Source: Blastococcus sp. PRF04-17 (GTDB lineage Bacteria; Actinomycetota; Actinomycetes; Mycobacteriales; Geodermatophilaceae). Taken from it: a stretch of DNA of 64,000 nt. The stretch spans positions 2,232,001 through 2,296,000 of the forward strand of contig NZ_CP095412.1 in assembly GCF_023016265.1 (NCBI RefSeq), read 5' to 3'. The notes beneath the pieces were generated by a model. It ran no database searches. It was not told the origin of the DNA and was given only the letters and a program-made list of their open reading frames with translations. Position numbers and translations under genes: made by a program. Positions 28,449 through 37,336 of this stretch are shown here, in pieces; position 1 is the first letter of the stretch, and each line of letters begins with the position of its first letter.

Positions 28449-29741
28449 ATGCGCCGCACCGCCACCGTTGCTCTTGCCGCCACGCTCGCCACGACCGCCG
28501 TCACCACCGGAGCGGCCACCGCCCAGGGCGCGCCCGGCGGTTCCGCTCCGCCGCGGGAGGTCATGTTCGTCGGCAACAACTGGGACGGCACCGCCACCGT
28601 CGTCGATCCACGGACCTACCGGCCGATCACCACGATCGACACGATCCCCGACCGCGCGGAGCGGATGGCCGAGATCCTCGCCAGCCCCGACAAGCTGGCC
28701 TTCTACCTCGCCATCCAGGCGGCGATCGGCGAGGGCAACGCGCAGTACACCGACGACATGTTCACCACGCACGACGGCCGGCTGCTCGCGGTCAGCCGCC
28801 CGAGCTTCGCCGACGTCGTGGGCATCGACCTGACCTCCGGGGACGTCGTCTGGCGCTTCCCGATGGAGGGCTACCGCTCCGACCACATGGGCGTCTCGCC
28901 GGACGGCACGCGGCTGCTGGTCAGCGACTCGACCGCCAACAAGGTGCACGAGCTCGACATCCTCACCGGCGAGAAGACCGGCGAGTTCCCCAGCGGCGAC
29001 AGCCCGCACGAGAACAACTACACGGCCGACGGCGAGCGGGTCTTCCACGCCAGCATCGGCCGCGTCTACACCCCGGTCGACCGGCCGGTGCTGCGCGAGC
29101 CGTACGACACGCAGAAGGGCGAGCGGTACCTCCAGACCGTGCGCACCGACGACCTGTCGATCGAGCACCGCTGGGACATGGGCCGCGAGCTCGAGGAGGC
29201 CGGCCACCCCGGCATGGAGTCGGCGGTCCGGCCGATGACGCTGGCACCCGACGAGCGGTACGTCTACCTGCAGGTGTCGTTCTTCCACGGCTGGATCGAG
29301 TTCGACACCCAGGCTCCCGACATCGACGGCACGACGACCTATGCCGGTGAGCCCGCCGTCGGCGCCGTCACGAGGGTCGTCGACCTCCCGAAGCGGACCA
29401 CCGAGCCGCGCGAGAACTACGTGCTCGACTCCGCGCACCACGGCATGACCATGAACGCCTCCGGCACGACGCTCTGCGCCGCCGGGACGATGGACGGCTA
29501 CGCGGCGATCGTCGACCGCTCGACGGCCCACCACGCGCTCGTCGACGTCGGCGAGAAGCCGTACTGGTCGACCAACGGCCCGGACGGCGAGACGTGCTGG
29601 GTCTCGGTCAGCGGCGAGGACGCGGTCGTCGTCATCGACTACGCCACGGCGGACGTGCTGGCCGAGGTGCCGGTCGGCGACCACCCGCAGCGGGTGCGCG
29701 AGGGCGTCGTCGCCCGGGACGTGCTCCGGTCCTGGAGGTGA
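28449..29741 (+). CDS. secreted YncE-like beta-propeller protein
   Basis: 430 aa with AGGAGG before ATG 28449. Signal peptide (RRTATVALAATLATTAVTTGAATAQG). Repeated beta-propeller blades: MFVGNNWDGTATVVDPRT, VSPDGTRLLVSDSTANKVHELD, and near the end SVSGEDAVVVIDYATADVLAEV. This is the seven-bladed YncE/cytochrome-d1-like fold. No heme or catalytic motif seen. Likely an exported binding or scaffold protein. It ends in a pair of palindromes shared with the convergent gene. Confidence 0.85.
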   Translation: MRRTATVALAATLATTAVTTGAATAQGAPGGSAPPREVMFVGNNWDGTATVVDPRTYRPITTIDTIPDRAERMAEILASPDKLAFYLAIQAAIGEGNAQYTDDMFTTHDGRLLAVSRPSFADVVGIDLTSGDVVWRFPMEGYRSDHMGVSPDGTRLLVSDSTANKVHELDILTGEKTGEFPSGDSPHENNYTADGERVFHASIGRVYTPVDRPVLREPYDTQKGERYLQTVRTDDLSIEHRWDMGRELEEAGHPGMESAVRPMTLAPDERYVYLQVSFFHGWIEFDTQAPDIDGTTTYAGEPAVGAVTRVVDLPKRTTEPRENYVLDSAHHGMTMNASGTTLCAAGTMDGYAAIVDRSTAHHALVDVGEKPYWSTNGPDGETCWVSVSGEDAVVVIDYATADVLAEVPVGDHPQRVREGVVARDVLRSWR

Positions 29742-29746
29742 CCGAG

Positions 29747-29798
29747 CCGAAACCGCGGTTTCGGCGCCTGGCCGGACGAGCCGGAACCGCGGTTTCGG
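29747..29798. terminator. duplicated palindrome between convergent genes
   Basis: CCGAAACCGCGGTTTCGG at 29747-29764 is a perfect 18-bp palindrome. A near copy with one change (CCGGAACCGCGGTTTCGG) is at 29781-29798. Both follow GAG, so the direct repeat is 21 bases with a 34-base period. The pair fills the 60-base gap between two convergent genes and probably serves as a two-way terminator. Confidence 0.7.
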
Positions 29799-29801
29799 TC
29801 G

Positions 29802-30920
29802 TCAGTCGACCAGTTCGGCGAGGCGGTCCTTGAGCGCGAGCTCGACCCGGTCGGCGTAGACGTTCATGTTGCGCACCGAGGTGTTCAGGTCGGCCGACAG
29901 CTGCGTCTTGGTCTGCCCACCCCACGTGGTCAGGTACCACGTCGCCCACCCGAGCACATTGGGCTGGCCCGCCCGCTGGTCCCGGCGGGCGGCCGGGTCC
30001 GGCGCGCAGGCGGCGGTCAGCGCGTGCGAGAGCAGCGTCTGCTCGGCCTCGCCCATGATCTCGTCCGGCGCCTCGGAGGAGTCCGGCAGCAGGATCTCGG
30101 TGGCGTCCGGTCCGCCGTCCAGGGACTGCAGGTTGCGCAGCCCGTTCAGCGTCGCGACGGTCTGGGAGTTGCGCCGCAGGGTCGCCACGCTCTGCCCCAT
30201 GTAGGCGGCCAGTTCCCTCTCGCTGGGCCGCCGCTGGTGCTCGGCGATGAAGGCGGCGATCGCCTTCTGCTGCTTGTGCTCGGTGTCGGCCGCGGTGCGC
30301 CCGTGGGCGTTGCGGCCGAGGTCGTGCACCCACTTGGAGAGCTGGGTCGCGAGGAACGCTCCGAATGGAACCGACTTGCTCTCGTCGTACTGGCTGACGG
30401 CCTTGAGGATCCACTCGTAGACCTGCTGGCCCAGGTCGTCCGGATCGGGCAGGTGCAGGCGGATCGTGCTCATGTTGCGCTGCAGCCGCTTGAGGCTGAC
30501 CGGCCCGTAGTGCCGGCAGAGGTCGGCCAGGAACTCCGGCGGGAGGTCTCGGGGGGTACGGCGGCGGACATCGGTCTCGGCGCGCAGGCCCACCGTCGAC
30601 GACCCGTGCCGCGCCGCCCAGGCCCGGATCCAGTCGGCCAGCACCGAGGCCGACCCAGGGACCCCGTCCACCCGGTAGAGACCCTCACCCTGGTCGTAGG
30701 TGACGGTCACCCCGGCAGGCAGGTCGGCGCGGAACCGGTCGAGGGGCAGCTCGCGGTCCACCCGGAAGTGCACCCGGTCGCGGGGCGTGATGGGCGCCAG
30801 CGCCCAGCCCTCGGACTCAGGGATGCCGCCGAAGACGAGCGGCTGACGAACACGGTTGCGGTTGTCGGTGGCGGTGGACGTCGGGGTGATGACAGGGAAG
30901 GACGTGGCGCGATCGGACAC
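29802..30920 (-). CDS. divergent sigma-70-like protein encoded in the flagellar locus
   Basis: 372 aa. About 145 residues of unknown N-terminal domain come first. A region-2-like segment follows (about 150-207: DDLGQQVYEWILKAVSQYDE, then VPFGAFLATQLSKWVHDLGR), a region-3-like segment (about 218-255: FIAEHQRRPSERELAAYMG) and a C-terminal helix-turn-helix like region 4 (about 325-368, TKTQLSADLNTSVRNMN). The order matches a sigma factor but the sequence is far from FliA, SigB and ECF types, and the -35/-10 contact residues are not clear. It sits 72 bases after a small unknown gene, downstream of csrA. Probably a regulator of flagellar or surface genes. Confidence 0.65.
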   Translation of the reverse strand: MSDRATSFPVITPTSTATDNRNRVRQPLVFGGIPESEGWALAPITPRDRVHFRVDRELPLDRFRADLPAGVTVTYDQGEGLYRVDGVPGSASVLADWIRAWAARHGSSTVGLRAETDVRRRTPRDLPPEFLADLCRHYGPVSLKRLQRNMSTIRLHLPDPDDLGQQVYEWILKAVSQYDESKSVPFGAFLATQLSKWVHDLGRNAHGRTAADTEHKQQKAIAAFIAEHQRRPSERELAAYMGQSVATLRRNSQTVATLNGLRNLQSLDGGPDATEILLPDSSEAPDEIMGEAEQTLLSHALTAACAPDPAARRDQRAGQPNVLGWATWYLTTWGGQTKTQLSADLNTSVRNMNVYADRVELALKDRLAELVD

Positions 30921-30992
30921 CGGTACTCCTGGGCACTACGGGGAAGGAGGATCTCGGGGAAGGAGACCCGGAAGTTGCTCGGGAGGGGGCCC

Positions 30993-31502
30993 TCAGGCCG
31001 GAACCCTCTCGCCCAGACCGTGGGACGGCGACCGCGGCGCCGGGACGACGGCGGCGGACGTCGCCGGCAGGCCCTCCACGACATCGGCGGCCGAGACGCC
31101 GTACGGCGCCTGCTCGAGCAGCACGGCGGCCGCGGCCCGCTCGGCCTCGCCGGGCTCGGCGGTGTAGACCGGCATGTGGTCGTAGAGCGTGGCGAAGAGG
31201 GCGCTGACGAAGGCGTACGCGGCCTGGGCCTGTGGTGAGAACTTGGCGACGGCGGTGCGCGGGCCGAGGTCGACTCCGACGGTCACCCGGACCACCCGGT
31301 CGTCCTTGCTCAGCCCGGTGATGCCGAACGCGACCTGGTCGTGCTCGGTCGCGAGGGCGGCGAGAGCGGCCAGGCACTTGCGCGTGGCACCGCGTCGCGG
31401 GCGCAGCTGGACGTGGACGACCACGCTCTCCTGCTCGGCCTGTTCGGCCTGCTCGCCGCTCCGCGCGTCGAATGCCGCCACGCTGGTTGCACTGCGTTCC
31501 AT
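30993..31502 (-). CDS. hypothetical protein upstream of the sigma-like gene
   Basis: 169 aa, with AGGGGGC before the ATG at 31502. Layout: acidic Gln/Glu lead, a compact alpha/beta core (VVVHVQLRPRRGATRKCLAA, then VAFGITGLSKDDRVVRVTVG), a helix-rich middle (AQAAYAFVSALFATLYDHMP), and a disordered Pro/Ser tail. No membrane segment. It is co-directional with and 72 bases from the sigma-like gene, so the pair probably forms an operon. It could be a partner or anti-sigma-like binder; this is only inferred from position. Confidence 0.6.
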   Translation of the reverse strand: MERSATSVAAFDARSGEQAEQAEQESVVVHVQLRPRRGATRKCLAALAALATEHDQVAFGITGLSKDDRVVRVTVGVDLGPRTAVAKFSPQAQAAYAFVSALFATLYDHMPVYTAEPGEAERAAAAVLLEQAPYGVSAADVVEGLPATSAAVVPAPRSPSHGLGERVPA

Positions 31503-31663
31503 GCTGATCGCCCCCTGTCACTTGCTTGGGGAGAAATCTGCCCTATCGCCTCGGCATCGACCCCGACAACACTCGCCGTGTCATACGCAGTTGTGGACCA
31601 TTACTTCGGCAGATGTTGCCCGTGTCGCCCCCTTCTCGGGTCGCCCTTGCGGACACACAGCAG

Positions 31664-31677
31664 CCTTTGCCCAAAGG
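31664..31677 (-). terminator. small hairpin downstream of csrA
   Basis: CCTTT, loop GCCC, AAAGG. It lies 27-40 bases after the csrA stop on the minus strand and before the next gene. Weak stem, no T tract. Confidence 0.35.
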
Positions 31678-31703
31678 GGGCCGGCCGGAGCCGTGCAGAT
31701 GTG

Positions 31704-32024
31704 TCAGCCGGTGGTCCCATCCGCGGGTGCGGAGCCGCCGGAGCCGCCTGCGGAGATGGGGGCCGCTTCCCCGTCGACCTCGGCCGACCCCGGTGACGGC
31801 GGAGGGGCGAACGCCGCCAGCGCCCCGAGGCTGTCGGCCGTCACCTGGGCTGCCAGCAGGTTCGCCTCGGCGATCTGCCGGTAGACCTCCTCGCGGTGGA
31901 TCGCCACCTCGCGGGGCGCCTTGAACCCGAGTCGGACGGTGCCGCCGCGCACCTCGACGACGTGGACCTCGATGTCGTCGCCGATGCGGATCGTCTCGCC
32001 GACGCTGCGGGTGAGTGTGAGCAC
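31704..32024 (-). CDS. csrA: carbon storage regulator CsrA
   Basis: 106 aa. The start is the GTG at 32024, which gives the standard MLTLTRSVGETIRIGDDI opening and lies five bases after GGAGGGG; longer readings are rejected. RNA-binding strands are intact, including Arg44 (AIHREEVYRQI). Unlike the usual 60-75 residues, this CsrA has a 40-residue Pro/Gly/Ser tail. In Gram-positive bacteria CsrA represses flagellin translation and is held off by FliW, whose gene is next. A GGA-loop hairpin at its own ribosome site suggests self-control. Confidence 0.95.
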   Translation of the reverse strand: MLTLTRSVGETIRIGDDIEVHVVEVRGGTVRLGFKAPREVAIHREEVYRQIAEANLLAAQVTADSLGALAAFAPPPSPGSAEVDGEAAPISAGGSGGSAPADGTTG

Positions 32025-32028
32025 GAGT

Positions 32029-32042
32029 ACCCCTCCATGGGT
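32029..32042 (-). promoter_or_regulatory. possible CsrA-binding hairpin over the csrA ribosome site
   Basis: On the minus strand ACCC, loop ATGGAG, GGGT sits just before the csrA GTG. The GGA of the Shine-Dalgarno is in the loop, which is the form CsrA prefers. The stem is only 4 bp, so this is tentative. Confidence 0.4.
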
Positions 32043-32157
32043 GTGGTGTGGTGGCCGTCCTTGGCGTCCCGCCGGGGCGGGGGTGTTCTGGTGGCGCGGT
32101 CGTTCCGGTGGTGCTGGTCGAGCCGGCGGCTGCACGATGCCACAGTCGCCGACGGAT

Positions 32158-32613
32158 TCATCGGATGAGCGGCTGCCGGATGGGGTGCGTGCCGTCCACG
32201 AGGACGACCTGACGGGCCCGGTGGGTGTCCGGATGCACGACCAGCGGCGCCCGCAGGTTGGCAGTCGCGGTGGCGACGTCGCCGTCGAGCACGGTCACCA
32301 GGCAGAACAGCTGCGCCTCGGCGACGTCGGCGAGATCGAGCTCGTCGCAGACCGCGATCGGCAGGACCGGCGCGTAGTCGGGGAAGAAGGCGCCGGCGCG
32401 CACGGCGAGGAAGCGGGGACCGTCCGGCGCCAGGGACTGCAGCCAGAAGAGCGTCCCGCCCTCCTCCGCGGGGACGAGGACGTACTCCCGGTGCCCGGGG
32501 AAGCCGGGGAGCGGCTCGGACAGGGCGATCGCCTGCACGGCGGCCGGCATCCGCGCGGGGGCGTGCGCGGAGGCCGCCCGCGGCGCGGGCGTGCGGAGCA
32601 GGGACGCGGTCAT
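32158..32613 (-). CDS. fliW: flagellar assembly factor FliW
   Basis: 151 aa. Core motifs PLPGFPGHREYVLVP, LFWLQSL and TANLRAPLVV match FliW. FliW binds flagellin and CsrA in turn: free FliW blocks CsrA from the flagellin mRNA until flagellin is exported. The N-terminal 20 residues are extra. Shares one base with the flgL stop (TGATG). Confidence 0.93.
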   Translation of the reverse strand: MTASLLRTPAPRAASAHAPARMPAAVQAIALSEPLPGFPGHREYVLVPAEEGGTLFWLQSLAPDGPRFLAVRAGAFFPDYAPVLPIAVCDELDLADVAEAQLFCLVTVLDGDVATATANLRAPLVVHPDTHRARQVVLVDGTHPIRQPLIR

Positions 32614-33494
32614 CAGCGCAGGTAGTCCAGGAGGGTCGGCGAGATCGCCTTCGCCGTCGCGGCCAGTGCGGCCTCGTACCCGACCCTCTGCATCTCCAGC
32701 TGCATGATCGTGTTCGGCAGGTCGATGTTCTCCGTCTCCGCCAGCCGCGAGTTCAGGGCCAGGGACCGGTCGAAGTTGATCCGCGCCAGGCCGTCGAGCC
32801 GGTTGGCCCGCGCGCCGACGTCGGCGACCGCCTTGTACATCGTGTTCATGATCGCGTCGAGGTCGGCGAGGTGGGTCTCCAGCGCCGCCGGGGACGTCGT
32901 CACGTCGGTGGCGATGCGGGCGACCACGGCGAACAGATCGTCGCCGGGAGTGCCGAACGCCTCGGGCCCCGTCGTGTCGACGCGGAGGACCTCGGTCTCC
33001 GACACGCGCCGGGTGACCGGCGGGCCGGCCAGCCCGACGTACGCGCCCGTGCTGTCGTATGCCTTGCTGTTCGGGGTCACCCCACCGAAGAGCGGACGGC
33101 CCTGGACATTGGTGTTGGCGAGAGTGAGCAGGCCCTCGCGCAGGGACGCGACCTCGGTGGCCAGCGCCGAGCGGCTGGCCTCGGAACCGCTCCCGCTGCT
33201 GAGGCCCTGGACGGTGAGGTCGCGGATCTTCCGCGTCATGTTGATCATGTTCTGCAGCGTGGAGTCGGTCTGCTCCAGCCAGTTCTGACCGTCGCTGATG
33301 TTGCGCGCCTCCTGGGCGACGCTGGCGATCTCCGCCCGGGCCTGCATCGCCCTGTTCGTGCCGGTCGGCGAGTCCGACGGCGCATTGATGAGGCGACCGG
33401 AGGTGAGCTGGTGCTGCAGCCTGCCGACGGCGTCGAGGTTGCGGTTGAGTCCCTGGAGGCTGGTGAGCGCGACGGCGCGCTGGGTGATGCGCAC
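32613..33494 (-). CDS. flgL: flagellar hook-filament junction protein FlgL
   Basis: 293 aa, GTG start. Flagellin-like N-terminal helix (RITQRAVALTSLQGLNRNL, with INAPSDSPTGTNRAM) and C-terminal coiled coil (LPNTIMQLEMQRVGYEAALA). Links filament to hook with FlgK; start lies 6 bases from the flgK stop. Confidence 0.95.
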   Translation of the reverse strand: MRITQRAVALTSLQGLNRNLDAVGRLQHQLTSGRLINAPSDSPTGTNRAMQARAEIASVAQEARNISDGQNWLEQTDSTLQNMINMTRKIRDLTVQGLSSGSGSEASRSALATEVASLREGLLTLANTNVQGRPLFGGVTPNSKAYDSTGAYVGLAGPPVTRRVSETEVLRVDTTGPEAFGTPGDDLFAVVARIATDVTTSPAALETHLADLDAIMNTMYKAVADVGARANRLDGLARINFDRSLALNSRLAETENIDLPNTIMQLEMQRVGYEAALAATAKAISPTLLDYLR

Positions 33495-33499
33495 TCAGA

Positions 33500-34912
33500 T
33501 CACCGGCCCACGATGCCGGTGCGGTTGATGAGCACGTCCAGGGTCTGGTCGATCGCGGTCACCATGCGGCCCGCGGCGGCATAGGCGTGCTGGAAGGACA
33601 GCATGTTCGTCATCTCCTCGTCGAGGTTGACCCCGGACACCGACTCCCGCGCCGCGTCCACCTGCGTGGTGATCACGTTCTGGATGCCGAGGTTCCGCTT
33701 CGACACCGCCGCCTGGACGCCCAGCTCGACGATCATCTTCCGGTAGGAGGCGTCGACACCCAGCGGCTCCAGCCGGAGCTGGGCGATCCGGTCGGCGACC
33801 GTGTTGTCGACCGCGGGCACGCCGGCCGTCGGCGGCACGCCCGAGGCGGCCACCAGTGCGGGATCGGTGATCAGGACCCGGAGCGACTCAGCAGTGATCG
33901 GTCCGCCCGACGACCCCAGGAGGGGCGTGCCCGGGTTGCCCAGCGAGTCGTAGGCGTTCGTCGTGTGGGCGGTGTTCAGGGCGGCGGCGAGGTCCTGGGC
34001 GAGCCGGTCGAGCTGCCCCCGGTAGCCCGGCAGGATCACGTTGAGCGCGGAGAGCTGACCGCCGGCGGTGCCGCCGGCCGCCACGGTGAACCCGCCGGAG
34101 GCCGTGACGATGCGCGGCTTGTCCGTCGGCGTGATCAGGTTCGGGTCGTTGGGGCCCTGGACGGCGAACTGGCTCGCGGCCGTACCGGAGACCAGCGACA
34201 TGCCGCCGACGATCACGTCCACCATGCCGTCCTCGCCGGGGCGGGTGGTGGCGCCGATCTGGTCGGCGAGCTTCATGACCAGCAGGTCCCGCTGGTCGGC
34301 CAGGTCGTTGGCGGGCAGCCCGCTCTGGGTGGCACCGCGGATGGCCTTGTTGAGCTGCGCGATGGTCGTGGCGGCCGCGTTCACGTCCTTGACCAGGACC
34401 TCGAGGTTCTCCCGCGTCTGACCCCACTGCGCGCCCAGCGACGCCTGGCTGAAGTGGATGCCGCCGACCAGGGTTTCCAGCTGCTGCAGCACCTGGCCGC
34501 GCGCGGCGGGCTCCTTGGGGTTGTTGGCGACGTCCTGCCAGCCCTTCCACATGTCCGAGAGCAGGCTCTGGATGCCGGTGTCCCCCGGCTCGCGGAACGA
34601 CTGCTCGACCAGGTCGTAGGCCTCGGTCTCCGCGACCAGTCGAGCGCTGTTGGCGTGCTCGACGTGACCGCGCCCTTCGAGGAAGGCGTCGCGGATGCGC
34701 GACACGGCGTCCGCATTGACGCCGGCGCCGATCCCGGGGCTGGTCGAGAAGAAGGCCGGGACGGCGCTGCCGCCGATGGCCTTCAGGTCGACCCGCTGCC
34801 GCGAGTAGCCCTCGGTGTTGACGTTGGCGATGTTCTGCCCCGTCACGTCGAGCGCGCGCCGCTGCGCCCACAGCGCGGTCGTGGCCGCGTTCAGCGCCGA
34901 GAACGTACTCAC
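33500..34912 (-). CDS. flgK: flagellar hook-associated protein FlgK
   Basis: 470 aa, GTG start. N-terminal rod-type motif (ALDVTGQNIANVNTEGYSRQ) and C-terminal DEEMTNMLSFQHAYAAAGRM, as in HAP1. The middle is shorter than in enteric FlgK. Its ribosome site lies in a 73-base element that also occurs before motB (see 34913-34985). Confidence 0.96.
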   Translation of the reverse strand: MSTFSALNAATTALWAQRRALDVTGQNIANVNTEGYSRQRVDLKAIGGSAVPAFFSTSPGIGAGVNADAVSRIRDAFLEGRGHVEHANSARLVAETEAYDLVEQSFREPGDTGIQSLLSDMWKGWQDVANNPKEPAARGQVLQQLETLVGGIHFSQASLGAQWGQTRENLEVLVKDVNAAATTIAQLNKAIRGATQSGLPANDLADQRDLLVMKLADQIGATTRPGEDGMVDVIVGGMSLVSGTAASQFAVQGPNDPNLITPTDKPRIVTASGGFTVAAGGTAGGQLSALNVILPGYRGQLDRLAQDLAAALNTAHTTNAYDSLGNPGTPLLGSSGGPITAESLRVLITDPALVAASGVPPTAGVPAVDNTVADRIAQLRLEPLGVDASYRKMIVELGVQAAVSKRNLGIQNVITTQVDAARESVSGVNLDEEMTNMLSFQHAYAAAGRMVTAIDQTLDVLINRTGIVGR

Positions 34913-34985: not shown

Positions 34986-35471
34986 TCACAGTGCGCCGTC
35001 CAGCGTCACGGCCCGGTGGGAGCCGTCGTCGGTGCGACCGGTCGAGCCGTAGGTGCCGGCCGAGGGGGCCTTGGTCTGCACCAGGGCGTCCCCGATGGCG
35101 GCCAGGCCGCCCTCGATGAGCTCGCGGTTGGTGTCGGAGAGGCTGCGCAGGTCGGTCACCAGGACCAGCAGCGCCTCGTGGTGCTTGGCGAAGAGGTCGT
35201 TCCACGGGGCGGGGGCGGCGTCGGACACCTGGCGCAGCGACGGGTCGGCGCCGATGCCGAGCTGGACGGCGATCGCCTCGGTGGCGGCGGCCCGCTCGAC
35301 CTCCAGCGTGCGCAGCTGCTCGAGGACCACCTCGATCTCGTGCGCGATCCGCGCCAGCCACCGCGTCTTCCCGGTGAGGATGAGGTACTGCTTCTCCTCC
35401 GCCTTGAACAGCAGCAGGTCCAGGAGCTCCTGCTCCCGCCACAGCAATGTCGACAGGTGCTGGTAGTCCAC
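34986..35471 (-). CDS. flgN: flagellar export chaperone FlgN
   Basis: 161 aa from the GTG at 35471 (VDYQHLSTLLWREQ), or 172 aa from ATG 35504, which has GGAG upstream. Long helical coiled-coil protein (LLWREQELLDLLLFKAEEKQ) of the FlgN family, chaperone for FlgK and FlgL, whose genes follow. A sigma-28-like promoter at 35534-35561 lies upstream, so either start is compatible. Confidence 0.85.
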   Translation of the reverse strand: MDYQHLSTLLWREQELLDLLLFKAEEKQYLILTGKTRWLARIAHEIEVVLEQLRTLEVERAAATEAIAVQLGIGADPSLRQVSDAAPAPWNDLFAKHHEALLVLVTDLRSLSDTNRELIEGGLAAIGDALVQTKAPSAGTYGSTGRTDDGSHRAVTLDGAL

Positions 35472-35533
35472 GTGTCCACCGCCCTTCCGTCGTCCGGCGC
35501 CCATCCGTCTCCGGGGCGCCTTCGTCGCTGCTG

Positions 35534-35561
35534 CCATCGGCACCCCGCGGAGGGGCCTCAA
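35534..35561 (-). promoter_or_regulatory. sigma-28-like promoter for flgN-flgK-flgL-fliW-csrA
   Basis: Minus strand: TTGA (35561-35558), 16 bases, GCCGATGG (35541-35534). Compare the sigma-28 -10 consensus GCCGATAA. Start would be near 35527, about 23 bases before ATG 35504. Confidence 0.5.
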
Positions 35562-35647
35562 GCCGAAGCGGGAAGACGTGCTCGAGTTCGGAAGGAAATG
35601 TGCCGAGGGCGGTGCCGAGCGCCCCCGGGTCAGCCGAGAAGAAGGAC

Positions 35648-36613
35648 GTGAGCCCAGCCCGTGCACCGGCGACCTCGCGGCCCCTGCGTCAGCGGCCGAC
35701 GCATGAGCGGTCGCAACCACAGCGCCCAGCCACCGGTCGGACCCCGCACCTCGCGCGCACCCGCTCGCAGGAGGAGATCGACGCACTGGTCACCGAGCAC
35801 CTGCCGCTGGCGTCGTTCGCGGTCAACGCCGTCGCCGCGCGCATCTCGCTGCCGGGGCACGTCAGCCGCGACGACCTCCTCTCCTGCGCTCACGTGGCGC
35901 TGGTCGAGGTGGCCAAGCGCTTCGACCCGTCGGCCGGCGCCTCGTTCGCGACGTACGCCCTGGCCCGGCTGCAGGGAGCCGTGCTCGACGAGCTGCGCTC
36001 CGGCGACTGGGCCAGCCGCTCGGTACGAGCCGCGGCCCGTCGCAGCGATGCCGCCGCCGACGCCCTGACGATCTCCCTGGGCCGACCGCCGTCCCGTGAG
36101 GAGCTCGCCACCAGCCTCGGCGTCCCGCGCAGCGAGCTGGACAACCTGCAGGTCGACGTCCACCGTGCCGTGATGGTGAGCATCGACGCCGAGGCCGGTC
36201 AGGACGGCTCGACGCTCGACCTGCCCGACACGGGTGAGTCCCCCGAGCGCGCCGTGCTGCGGGGCGAACGGGCTCGCTACCTCAACGACGCGATCCGGGC
36301 ACTGCCGGACCGCCTCGACGAGGTCATCGAGCGCAATTTCTTCGGTGACGAATCACTGACCGACATCGCCCAAGACCTCGGTGTGACCCTTTCGCGGGTC
36401 TCGCAGATGCGAGCGCGTGCCCTGACCCTTCTGCACGCCGCGATGAGCGAGGTGTGGGACGGCAAGGCGGTTCCGGCCGACGGCGGTGTCCGCGCGCGCA
36501 ACCAGCAGCGGTCCTACGTCGAGCGGGTCGCCAGGCGGGCGCCGACGCCCACGGCCCTCCCCCGGCAGCGCTCGGGCTGGCCGGTGGCCGGCGCCGCGGC
36601 GCAGACCGCCTGA
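35648..36613 (+). CDS. fliA: flagellar/WhiG-type RNA polymerase sigma factor
   Basis: 321 aa. GTG 35648 follows AGAAGGAC. Region 2 (about 43-127) has DDLLSCAHVALVEVAKRFD and FATYALARLQGAVLDELR; region 3 (about 138-190) and region 4 (about 205-262, GDESLTDIAQDLGVTLSRVSQM) complete the sigma-28 plan. The 40-residue N-terminal lead and 55-residue Arg-rich tail are extra. It is adjacent to flagellin and divergent from flgN, so it is the likely reader of the GCCGATGA-type promoters here. Confidence 0.9.
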   Translation: MSPARAPATSRPLRQRPTHERSQPQRPATGRTPHLARTRSQEEIDALVTEHLPLASFAVNAVAARISLPGHVSRDDLLSCAHVALVEVAKRFDPSAGASFATYALARLQGAVLDELRSGDWASRSVRAAARRSDAAADALTISLGRPPSREELATSLGVPRSELDNLQVDVHRAVMVSIDAEAGQDGSTLDLPDTGESPERAVLRGERARYLNDAIRALPDRLDEVIERNFFGDESLTDIAQDLGVTLSRVSQMRARALTLLHAAMSEVWDGKAVPADGGVRARNQQRSYVERVARRAPTPTALPRQRSGWPVAGAAAQTA

Positions 36614-37237: not shown

Positions 37238-37264
37238 TCAAGGTGGAGGCCCCGCCGCCGTAAT
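37238..37264 (+). promoter_or_regulatory. sigma-28-like promoter for fliC
   Basis: TCAA (37238-37241), 15 bases, GCCGTAAT (37257-37264). Close to the Bacillus sigma-D pattern TAAA-N15-GCCGATAT. A start near 37271 gives a 70-base leader. Confidence 0.6.
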
Positions 37265-37292: not shown

Positions 37293-37336
37293 GCACGGAT
37301 GCAGCGGGACTCCGGCTAGACCCCATCCAAGGAGGA
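37293..37336 (+). promoter_or_regulatory. possible CsrA sites in the flagellin leader
   Basis: A small hairpin GCA-CGGA-TGC (37293-37302) shows GGA in its loop, and the ribosome site AAGGAGGA (37329-37336) has GGA again. Two such sites, one over the Shine-Dalgarno, resemble the Bacillus hag leader bound by CsrA. Confidence 0.4.

Follow-up and report, generated by a model that had tools for sequence, protein, structure and literature searches.

What is known of how actinobacteria control their flagella and pili concerns mainly FliA, WhiG and RsiG. A switch of the FliA clade, WhiG-RsiG, controls sporulation in Streptomyces, and in Rubrobacter it has been connected with type IV pili by bioinformatics and start-site mapping; the same source records RsiG in 16 of 16 Geodermatophilaceae (PMC8325347). 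Here, we describe a gene pair in the flagellar locus of Blastococcus sp. PRF04-17, a member of the Geodermatophilaceae, that suggests a hitherto undescribed unit controlling surface appendages. The window, i.e., the whole stretch of DNA analyzed, comprises 64,000 nucleotides of contig NZ_CP095412.1 (positions 2,232,001 to 2,296,000 of the forward strand; the genome is 4.59 Mb in one contig). The pair consists of a sigma-like protein of 372 amino acids, referred to as SIG (29802..30920, minus strand, GTG start; orthologues in 66 named loci), and a partner protein of 169 amino acids with a conserved family of its own, referred to as U169 (30993..31502, minus strand, ATG start). A sequence-only reading of the window had proposed both reading frames, with the 169-amino acid gene preceding SIG in the same direction and csrA further upstream (open frame 31704..32135, minus strand, true start probably inside it; PF02599 E 2e-22), and this layout was borne out. 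Since SIG orthologues are present in 66 named contigs, with U169 adjoining in 65, both are real genes.

The reading that we favor, at somewhat better than an even chance, is that SIG is a divergent, FliA/WhiG-derived sigma factor with an extra ferredoxin-like domain, that U169 is its cognate regulator, and that the two form a two-gene surface-appendage switch. A survey of actinobacterial flagella searched for FliA, FlgM, CsrA and FliW among regulators, and the available part of its text makes no mention of the SIG gene (PMC10746217). The gene pair was not found described in the open-licence papers searched on actinobacterial flagella, pili and sigma factors.

Sigma homology of SIG

In a profile-versus-profile comparison (hhalign, with a 13-row SIG alignment, A3, and an 8-row FliA alignment, A5), residues 123-370 of SIG aligned with FliA over 228 columns (probability 96.9, E 1.7e-10; hhalign E-values here and below are those of single comparisons), and the alignment spanned the sequence from before region 2 through the end of region 4, with the regions in order. 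A search of 396 genomes of the phylum with the A3 profile matched sigma-70 proteins in 30 genomes other than our own (E up to 1e-6, best E 3e-11); out of seven matches examined, six contained Pfam regions 2, 3 and 4, while the seventh, a piece of 123 residues, contained none. A chance resemblance of SIG to sigma factors is ruled out by these two results. They also settle the claim of the sequence-only reading that segments resembling regions 2, 3 and 4 can be recognized in SIG: the segments are real, though weak. We conclude from these profile comparisons that the sigma homology of SIG extends over regions 2 to 4.

The sigma part of SIG (minus strand, as are all SIG and U169 coordinates below) comprises residues 123-215, corresponding to regions 1.2/2.1 to 3.0 with approximate boundaries (30276..30554; hhalign to FliA, VIA to 1rp3); residues 216-268, corresponding to region 3 (30117..30275; hhalign and a sub-threshold Pfam Sigma70_r3 match); and residues 291-372, corresponding to region 4 with its helix-turn-helix (29805..30050; hhalign, conservation and, in remote homologues, sub-threshold Sigma70_r4_2). 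Extracytoplasmic function (ECF) sigma factors have regions 2 and 4 only; in SIG, the profile alignment and the sub-threshold Pfam match place region 3 between them. The sigma part is preceded by a variable tail, residues 1-24 (30849..30920), within which the start codon is uncertain, and by an extra domain, residues 25-122 (30555..30848). An extra N-terminal part is present, as had been proposed, but it measures about 122 residues rather than 145.

The best NCBIfam model for SIG was TIGR02479, FliA_WhiG (E 2.3e-6, 27.5 bits versus a cut-off of 189.6), and in Pfam, Sigma70_r2 and Sigma70_r3 matched below threshold (E 0.11 and 0.15, respectively). In four out of five remote homologues from a pilus lineage, described below, a sub-threshold Sigma70_r4_2 match was found in the right place (E 0.0017-0.014), and for a remote homologue FliA_WhiG was again the best NCBIfam model (E 2.9e-4, far under the cut-off). 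By curated score, SIG is therefore related to the FliA/WhiG group without being a member of it. The earlier statement that SIG has no close match by eye to FliA, ECF or SigB types is corrected in that its best family is FliA/WhiG. As had also been noted, a second, FliA-like sigma is encoded nearby: some 4.5 kb separate the SIG start from that of fliA (35447..36613, plus strand, exact start uncertain), an ordinary flagellar sigma factor whose Pfam Sigma70 regions 2, 3 and 4 are all above cut-off.

A sequence search of the PDB with SIG gave no match at E up to 10. The AlphaFold model of SIG had a mean predicted local distance difference test (pLDDT) score of 65. Foldseek returned 11 matches to this model at E < 1e-3, with low template modeling (TM) scores of 0.16-0.36; nine of them were titled sigma chains, and the other two, titled RPSD-RPOB and RPSB-RPOC, we take to be Bacillus sigma-D and sigma-B. 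VIA placed SIG residues 124-268 onto sigma-28 of 1rp3 (Z 9.2, root-mean-square deviation 8.7, 141 residues). The possibility that SIG is a mobile or phage gene was rejected: tblastn gave no match at E up to 1e-3 among 72,556 plasmid and 50,697 phage records, and PHROGs matches to SIG were weak only.

The SIG-U169 module tracks one machine per lineage

On the minus strand of the window, flgK (33500-34912), flgL (32613-33494), fliW (32158-32613, PF02623), csrA, U169 and SIG follow each other in this order, while fliA, fliC and fliD are located on the plus strand; the names flgK, flgL, fliC and fliD were read off the sequence rather than obtained from family searches. The 66 named loci belong, by title, to Geodermatophilaceae, with the exception of one UNVERIFIED_ORG Bacillus sp. 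AZ43; the scan used finds close relatives only. In 66 of 66, those genes of the flgK-to-SIG series that were detected (U169 and csrA in 65 loci, flgL and flgK in 63) kept both order and strand. U169 adjoined SIG on the same strand in 65 loci, and in the remaining locus, L050, the contig spans 4.4 kb and starts 74 bases before the SIG match.

When genomes of the family were searched, SIG was found in 32 out of 37 (own genome included, E under 1e-170), and FlhA, used as a marker of flagella, was found in exactly the same 32 genomes and in none of the five non-carriers (Fisher p 2.3e-6, uncorrected for relatedness). The pilus query in this family was PilC, and its count covers that pilus type; at E up to 1e-15 it was detected in 2 of 37 genomes, including one of the 32 SIG carriers and excluding our own genome. 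Pilus-assembly genes of some kind are annotated in all family representatives treated in PMC9686282. Other families of the order contributed 24 genomes, of which seven had FlhA and none had a SIG orthologue; weak partial sigma matches to SIG were seen in three (E 4e-7 to 1.4e-4).

A search of 394 genomes of the class (E up to 1e-8) revealed SIG homologues in one other family only, designated f49 (five genomes; the 13-row SIG profile finds more carriers in this family). The f49 homologues are 25-29% identical to SIG, N-terminal domain included, and are found in a type IV pilus cluster with the order PilB, PilC, prepilin-like protein, U (the U169 counterpart), SIG, a 238-amino acid protein, a further protein and prepilin peptidase. 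PilB (TIGR02538, E 1e-177) and PilC (E 6e-111) both score under equivalog cut-offs; the prepilin-like protein carries the motif GFTLIELLVV, and the prepilin peptidase matches PF06750 (E 6e-37). U adjoined SIG on the same strand in all 23 f49 loci examined, and the U stop and SIG start overlapped by 4 bases in L108 and, given the start chosen, also in L111. The prepilin gene was found upstream in 20 of the 23 loci (the remaining three stop at a contig edge), prepilin peptidase in 22 and PilC in 19. Downstream of SIG, the pilus clusters encode two more conserved proteins, each in 22 out of 23 loci (for example, L109:6515-7231 and L109:5278-6570, both minus strand); the 238-amino acid protein downstream of f49 SIG gave no Pfam or NCBIfam family match.

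In a sample of 85 f49 genomes (1.2-3.7 Mb), SIG was present in 26 (E under 1e-90, three partial), PilC in 26, and both in 24. PilC was thus found in 24 of 26 SIG carriers versus 2 of 59 non-carriers (Fisher 1e-16, uncorrected for relatedness). Completeness was 61% and 65% for the two genomes with PilC alone, and 97% and 91% for the two with SIG alone. FlhA was present in 1 of the 26 SIG carriers and in 12 of the 85 genomes, an inverse trend that was non-significant (Fisher p 0.095). We conclude that the SIG-U169 module tracks one machine per lineage, the flagellum in Geodermatophilaceae and the type IV pilus in f49. Because U169 is the constant neighbor of SIG in two distantly related lineages, the two proteins are likely to be a functional pair.

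Extra domain, partner protein and upstream regions

SIG residues 25-122 are predicted to form a ferredoxin-like, beta-alpha-beta-beta-alpha-beta domain, with AlphaFold 2 block pLDDT values of 75-93 over residues 31-120. The tail ahead of it (residues 1-24) had a mean entropy of 2.21 bits (12 columns not mostly gaps), no invariant column and pLDDT under 50. VIA matched residues 43-120 to LarC2, elongation-factor domains and an ACT-type domain, all with a similar Z of 7-8, which on the strength of the model suggests a common fold with no specific relative. The domain alone gave nothing in Pfam at E up to 10, and its profile gave nothing convincing against solved structures (best E 0.14).

A search of the 85 f49 genomes returned two matches confined to the domain, and both lie in the C-terminal part of ATP-binding cassette (ABC)-type ATPases (L162:404-1354 and L163:4424-5353). 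In hhalign, the domain matched these two proteins with a probability of 96.6 and E 6.8e-10, about as strongly as its flagellar- and pilus-lineage copies matched each other (E 4.6e-10). No convincing C-terminal Pfam family appeared among the matches listed for the two proteins, and no ABC ATPase appeared among the 50 VIA matches listed for the SIG domain, a result that is uninformative on ABC kinship. Both ATPase genes adjoin apparent heme A synthesis homologues, named from sequence. When 364 genomes of the class were searched with the domain, 72 had a match at E up to 1e-3. Out of 30 loci fetched, from the higher-scoring matches, nine were SIG copies; the 21 others all contained a Walker A motif and had the match in the C-terminal part, and 20 of them also contained an ABC signature. 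Since the non-SIG loci fetched are ATPases with a C-terminal domain of this type, the domain looks to be common to SIG and a family of actinobacterial ABC ATPases (L162, L163 and L188-L208, for example), with about 55-70 profile positions matched between the homologous copies. The position differs, the putative shared domain being at the end of the protein in the ATPases and ahead of the sigma part in SIG.

Neither Pfam nor NCBIfam gave a match for U169 at E up to 1, a negative that may still miss kinship to RsbW-like or zinc anti-sigma families. Its core (residues 25-116, 31155..31430) is predicted to be an alpha/beta, ferredoxin-like domain (AlphaFold 2 pLDDT blocks of 66-86 over residues 21-110 and of 53 for residues 111-120). 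Foldseek found no match to the model under E 0.05, and VIA gave common-fold matches only (best Z 8.7). The idea that U169 duplicates the N-terminal domain of SIG was rejected (hhalign probability 0.06), though both are predicted ferredoxin-like. The cyclic di-GMP motif of RsiG, E(X)3S(X)2R(X)3[QH](X)3D, was found in 0 of 51 U169-family rows. In 394 genomes of the class, the U169-family profile scored better than E 1e-20 in 10 only, all of them SIG carriers; this count leaves out weak, short matches of E 6e-4 to 8.5e-4 in G073, in G408 and at a second site of G173.

Over 63 loci, the median identity to the window in best tblastn segments was 85.4% for SIG, 74.9% for FliA, 93.3% for CsrA, 69.6% for U169 and 64.0% for FlgK. 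The faster divergence of U169 (median 70% versus 85% for SIG), along with its lack of a known regulator family or significant fold match, would fit a separate appendage part, e.g., a chaperone or an export-linked protein, that is merely co-transcribed with SIG, and such a role is compatible with any reading of SIG itself. We consider it unlikely, as the pair is kept in flagellar and pilus loci whose other neighbors differ. The ferredoxin-like fold, which is frequent among small-molecule sensors, would also suit a SIG that is a DNA-binding activator or repressor that does not bind polymerase and that has retained region 4 and part of region 2 as its DNA-binding modules, with U169 as a ligand sensor or co-regulator. 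The top Pfam sigma model of four out of five pilus-lineage proteins, that of region 4, is consistent with such an activity, but conservation extends to regions 2 and 3, which follow in order at the spacing expected of sigma factors, and we regard this reading of SIG as distinctly improbable.

The region between csrA and U169 (31503..31703, minus strand) is nearly constant in length: the spacer is 190-212 bp in 49 out of the 52 loci, the window among them, that belong to neither Modestobacter nor Goekera, and 121-167 bp in the 14 loci of these two genera. Alignment of upstream regions revealed a conserved block, CGACACGGGCAA-N4-TGCCGAAG (31604..31627, minus strand), which is a candidate promoter or operator of the pair and whose core, ACACnGGCAA-N4-TGCCGAAG, is present in 46 of 66 U169 upstream regions. 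A second block (31566..31589, minus strand) contains [AG]GCGAGT, present in 57 of 66; taken whole, it has no other copy in the window when up to 3 mismatches are allowed. A hairpin at this block is suggested by eye; we claim no RNA structure, and an Rfam search of 29500-32700 found no RNA at E up to 1. Housekeeping-type promoters and intrinsic terminators were not found in 29600-32200. The blocks may be an autoregulatory site.

The flagellin-type motif T[CA]AA-N14-18-GCCG[TA] was present upstream of fliC in 51 out of 61 loci (shuffled mean 0.65), versus 2 of 66 upstream of U169. As the motif was first read from the same fliC alignment, the fliC count is partly circular, while the U169 count is not; three of the 61 fliC regions (L066, L073 and L079) look misplaced, with their best match on flgL, and were kept in the count. 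In the window, the promoter-like sequence TCAA-N15-GCCGTAA precedes fliC at 37238-37263 (plus strand). The FliA consensus TAAA-N15-GCCGATAA, at up to 3 mismatches, had 10 window sites versus 2.85 expected, a number reached in 0 of 100 shuffles; all 10 have 3 mismatches, and with an N14 spacer there were five sites versus 2.98 expected. The proposal of the sequence-only reading that the pair is a separate switch is in keeping with an upstream region that has conserved blocks of its own and lacks the flagellin-type promoter, and U169 may be an anti-sigma factor, a sensor or an activator, but the module is not purely flagellar, because the same module sits in the f49 type IV pilus locus.

Two further observations concern neighboring sequences. 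CsrA binds a GGA motif in a loop, and in Bacillus flagellin is controlled by CsrA and FliW. The CsrA-site-like sequence GCACGGATGC is located upstream of fliC at 37293-37302 (plus strand), where it forms the apex of a GC-rich hairpin just ahead of the flagellin start, and is exact in 55 of 61 fliC leaders; by analogy, this suggests CsrA-FliW control of flagellin resembling that of Bacillus. In 14 Modestobacter/Goekera loci (L080-L092 and L096), fliW was undetected between flgL and csrA, while csrA was kept. Finally, two near-identical palindromes (ccgaaaccgcggtttcgg and ccggaaccgcggtttcgg) are found at 29744-29800, in the gap that separates SIG from a convergent beta-propeller gene.

Competing readings and known systems

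Conservation was counted in 49 flagellar-lineage sequences, with region boundaries set from the FliA alignment, and most of the sigma part proved to vary little. Invariant columns made up 22 of 25 in regions 2.3-2.4 (residues 179-203), 11 of 13 in the recognition segment of region 4.2 (residues 346-358) and 39 of 98 in the N-terminal domain. SIG could be a sigma mimic that has lost transcription activity of its own. Its sigma-like part would then capture an anti-sigma factor, be it U169, RsiG or an unseen protein resembling FlgM, and thereby release FliA or WhiG; the precedent is PhyR, a response regulator that binds NepR and thus releases EcfG. The weak sigma signatures of SIG in Pfam and NCBIfam, its least conserved numbered sigma region being 2.2, and the extra regulatory domain ahead of the sigma-like part are all consistent with mimicry, and factors to be freed are at hand: fliA is present in 63 of 63 named loci of the family that reach flgK, and RsiG-WhiG is recorded in 16 of 16 Geodermatophilaceae species in PMC8325347. 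On the other hand, a mimic has no obvious need for the DNA-contact stretches 2.3-2.4 and 4.2, which in SIG are near invariant. Near fixation of these stretches favors real promoter binding over mimicry, though not decisively, while poor conservation of region 2.2 gives mimicry a slight gain; overall, we consider mimicry rather unlikely.

Several points weigh against SIG being a working sigma factor in a switch with U169. No sigma family match of SIG reaches a curated Pfam or NCBIfam cut-off, the Pfam gathering cut-offs being missed (12.7 and 12.6 bits versus 24 and 25.3), and the five remote homologues are likewise under Pfam sigma cut-offs; confidence of the SIG model is low after residue 254, region 4 included. 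Region 2.2, the polymerase-binding part of sigma factors, shows the lowest conservation among the numbered sigma regions (9 of 20 columns invariant, entropy 0.52 bits). Conservation does not single out DNA contact, because regions 3 and 4.1 equal the recognition segment of region 4.2 in this respect. The co-occurrence counts ignore relatedness, and the five SIG-less genomes of the family fall in three genera. Seven flagellated genomes of the order are without SIG, so flagella as such dispense with it. The main upstream block is represented in our own genome by the window copy and one copy with 3 mismatches; as this leaves no second good copy, a regulon could not be identified. In the pilus loci, GACACnGGC, [AG]GCGAGT and TGCCGAA were found upstream of U in 0 of 19, and the looser GCCGAT or CGGCGA in 2 of 19, several hundred bases off.

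According to the two-gene switch that we favor, U169, the N-terminal domain of SIG, or both would hold SIG inactive pending an assembly or cellular signal. Freed SIG would bind RNA polymerase and steer it to promoters unlike the FliA-type flagellin promoter, possibly including that of the pair itself, and the switch would be wired to the flagellum in Geodermatophilaceae and to type IV pili in f49. That SIG is active in transcription, which promoters it recognizes, that U169 binds it, and whether the effect of U169 is positive or negative are points that we infer. A more far-reaching version, which we hold tentatively and put somewhat short of an even chance, is that a ferredoxin-like domain common to ABC exporter ATPases gates a sigma factor, that U169 represents a new anti-sigma or co-sigma family, and that the switch has been re-used between flagella and type IV pili, a single ancestral switch having come to serve two surface machines unrelated to each other. 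The observation itself, a conserved two-gene sigma/regulator module common to flagellar and pilus loci, is real; its mechanism we infer.

SIG, present in 32 of 32 flagellated genomes of the family, more conserved than FliA and with a remote twin in a pilus locus, would add a layer of control. It would be overlooked as a sigma factor by Pfam/NCBIfam annotation, because no sigma model reaches its cut-off. The flagellum/pilus pair also offers natural experiments on the rewiring of a sigma switch to a new machine. Motility was unseen in the Blastococcus strains studied in PMC9686282 despite their flagellar genes, and, speculatively, a tight switch could explain this.

SIG-U169 shares features with several known systems and differs from them in others. 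Like the sigma-28 group of FliA/WhiG (TIGR02479), SIG has regions 2, 3 and 4 in order and is linked to appendage genes; it differs in the extra N-terminal domain, in a score far under the cut-off, and in that a flagellin-type promoter precedes the U169-SIG pair in 2 of 66 loci only. The FliA-FlgM pair likewise consists of a flagellar sigma factor and a partner protein. However, FlgM is small, helical and for the most part disordered, while U169 is larger, has a predicted alpha/beta core and is also found with pili. In PhyR, a receiver domain is joined to a sigma domain of the ECF-like kind, while the N-terminal domain of SIG is predicted to be ferredoxin-like and ABC ATPase-related. The sigma factor SsdA and its partner SipA of Actinoplanes also combine an actinobacterial sigma factor, a fused regulatory domain and a dedicated partner, but, according to PMC10733313, SsdA is of the SigB/F/G type with a C-terminal STAS domain, and its partner has STAS and RsbW-like domains. 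WhiG-RsiG is the nearest working parallel to SIG-U169, being a FliA-clade sigma factor with a dedicated partner that has been given different tasks across actinobacteria (PMC8325347). RsiG, as described there, forms a coiled coil of helices bearing E(X)3S(X)2R(X)3Q(X)3D motifs, unlike U169, which is predicted to be alpha/beta and has the motif in 0 of 51 family rows. A further FliA/WhiG-like gene, L002, 31% identical to FliA, is located elsewhere in our own genome. Because the family is reported to have RsiG and the genome has L002, SIG-U169 appears to be an additional system, distinct from RsiG-WhiG.

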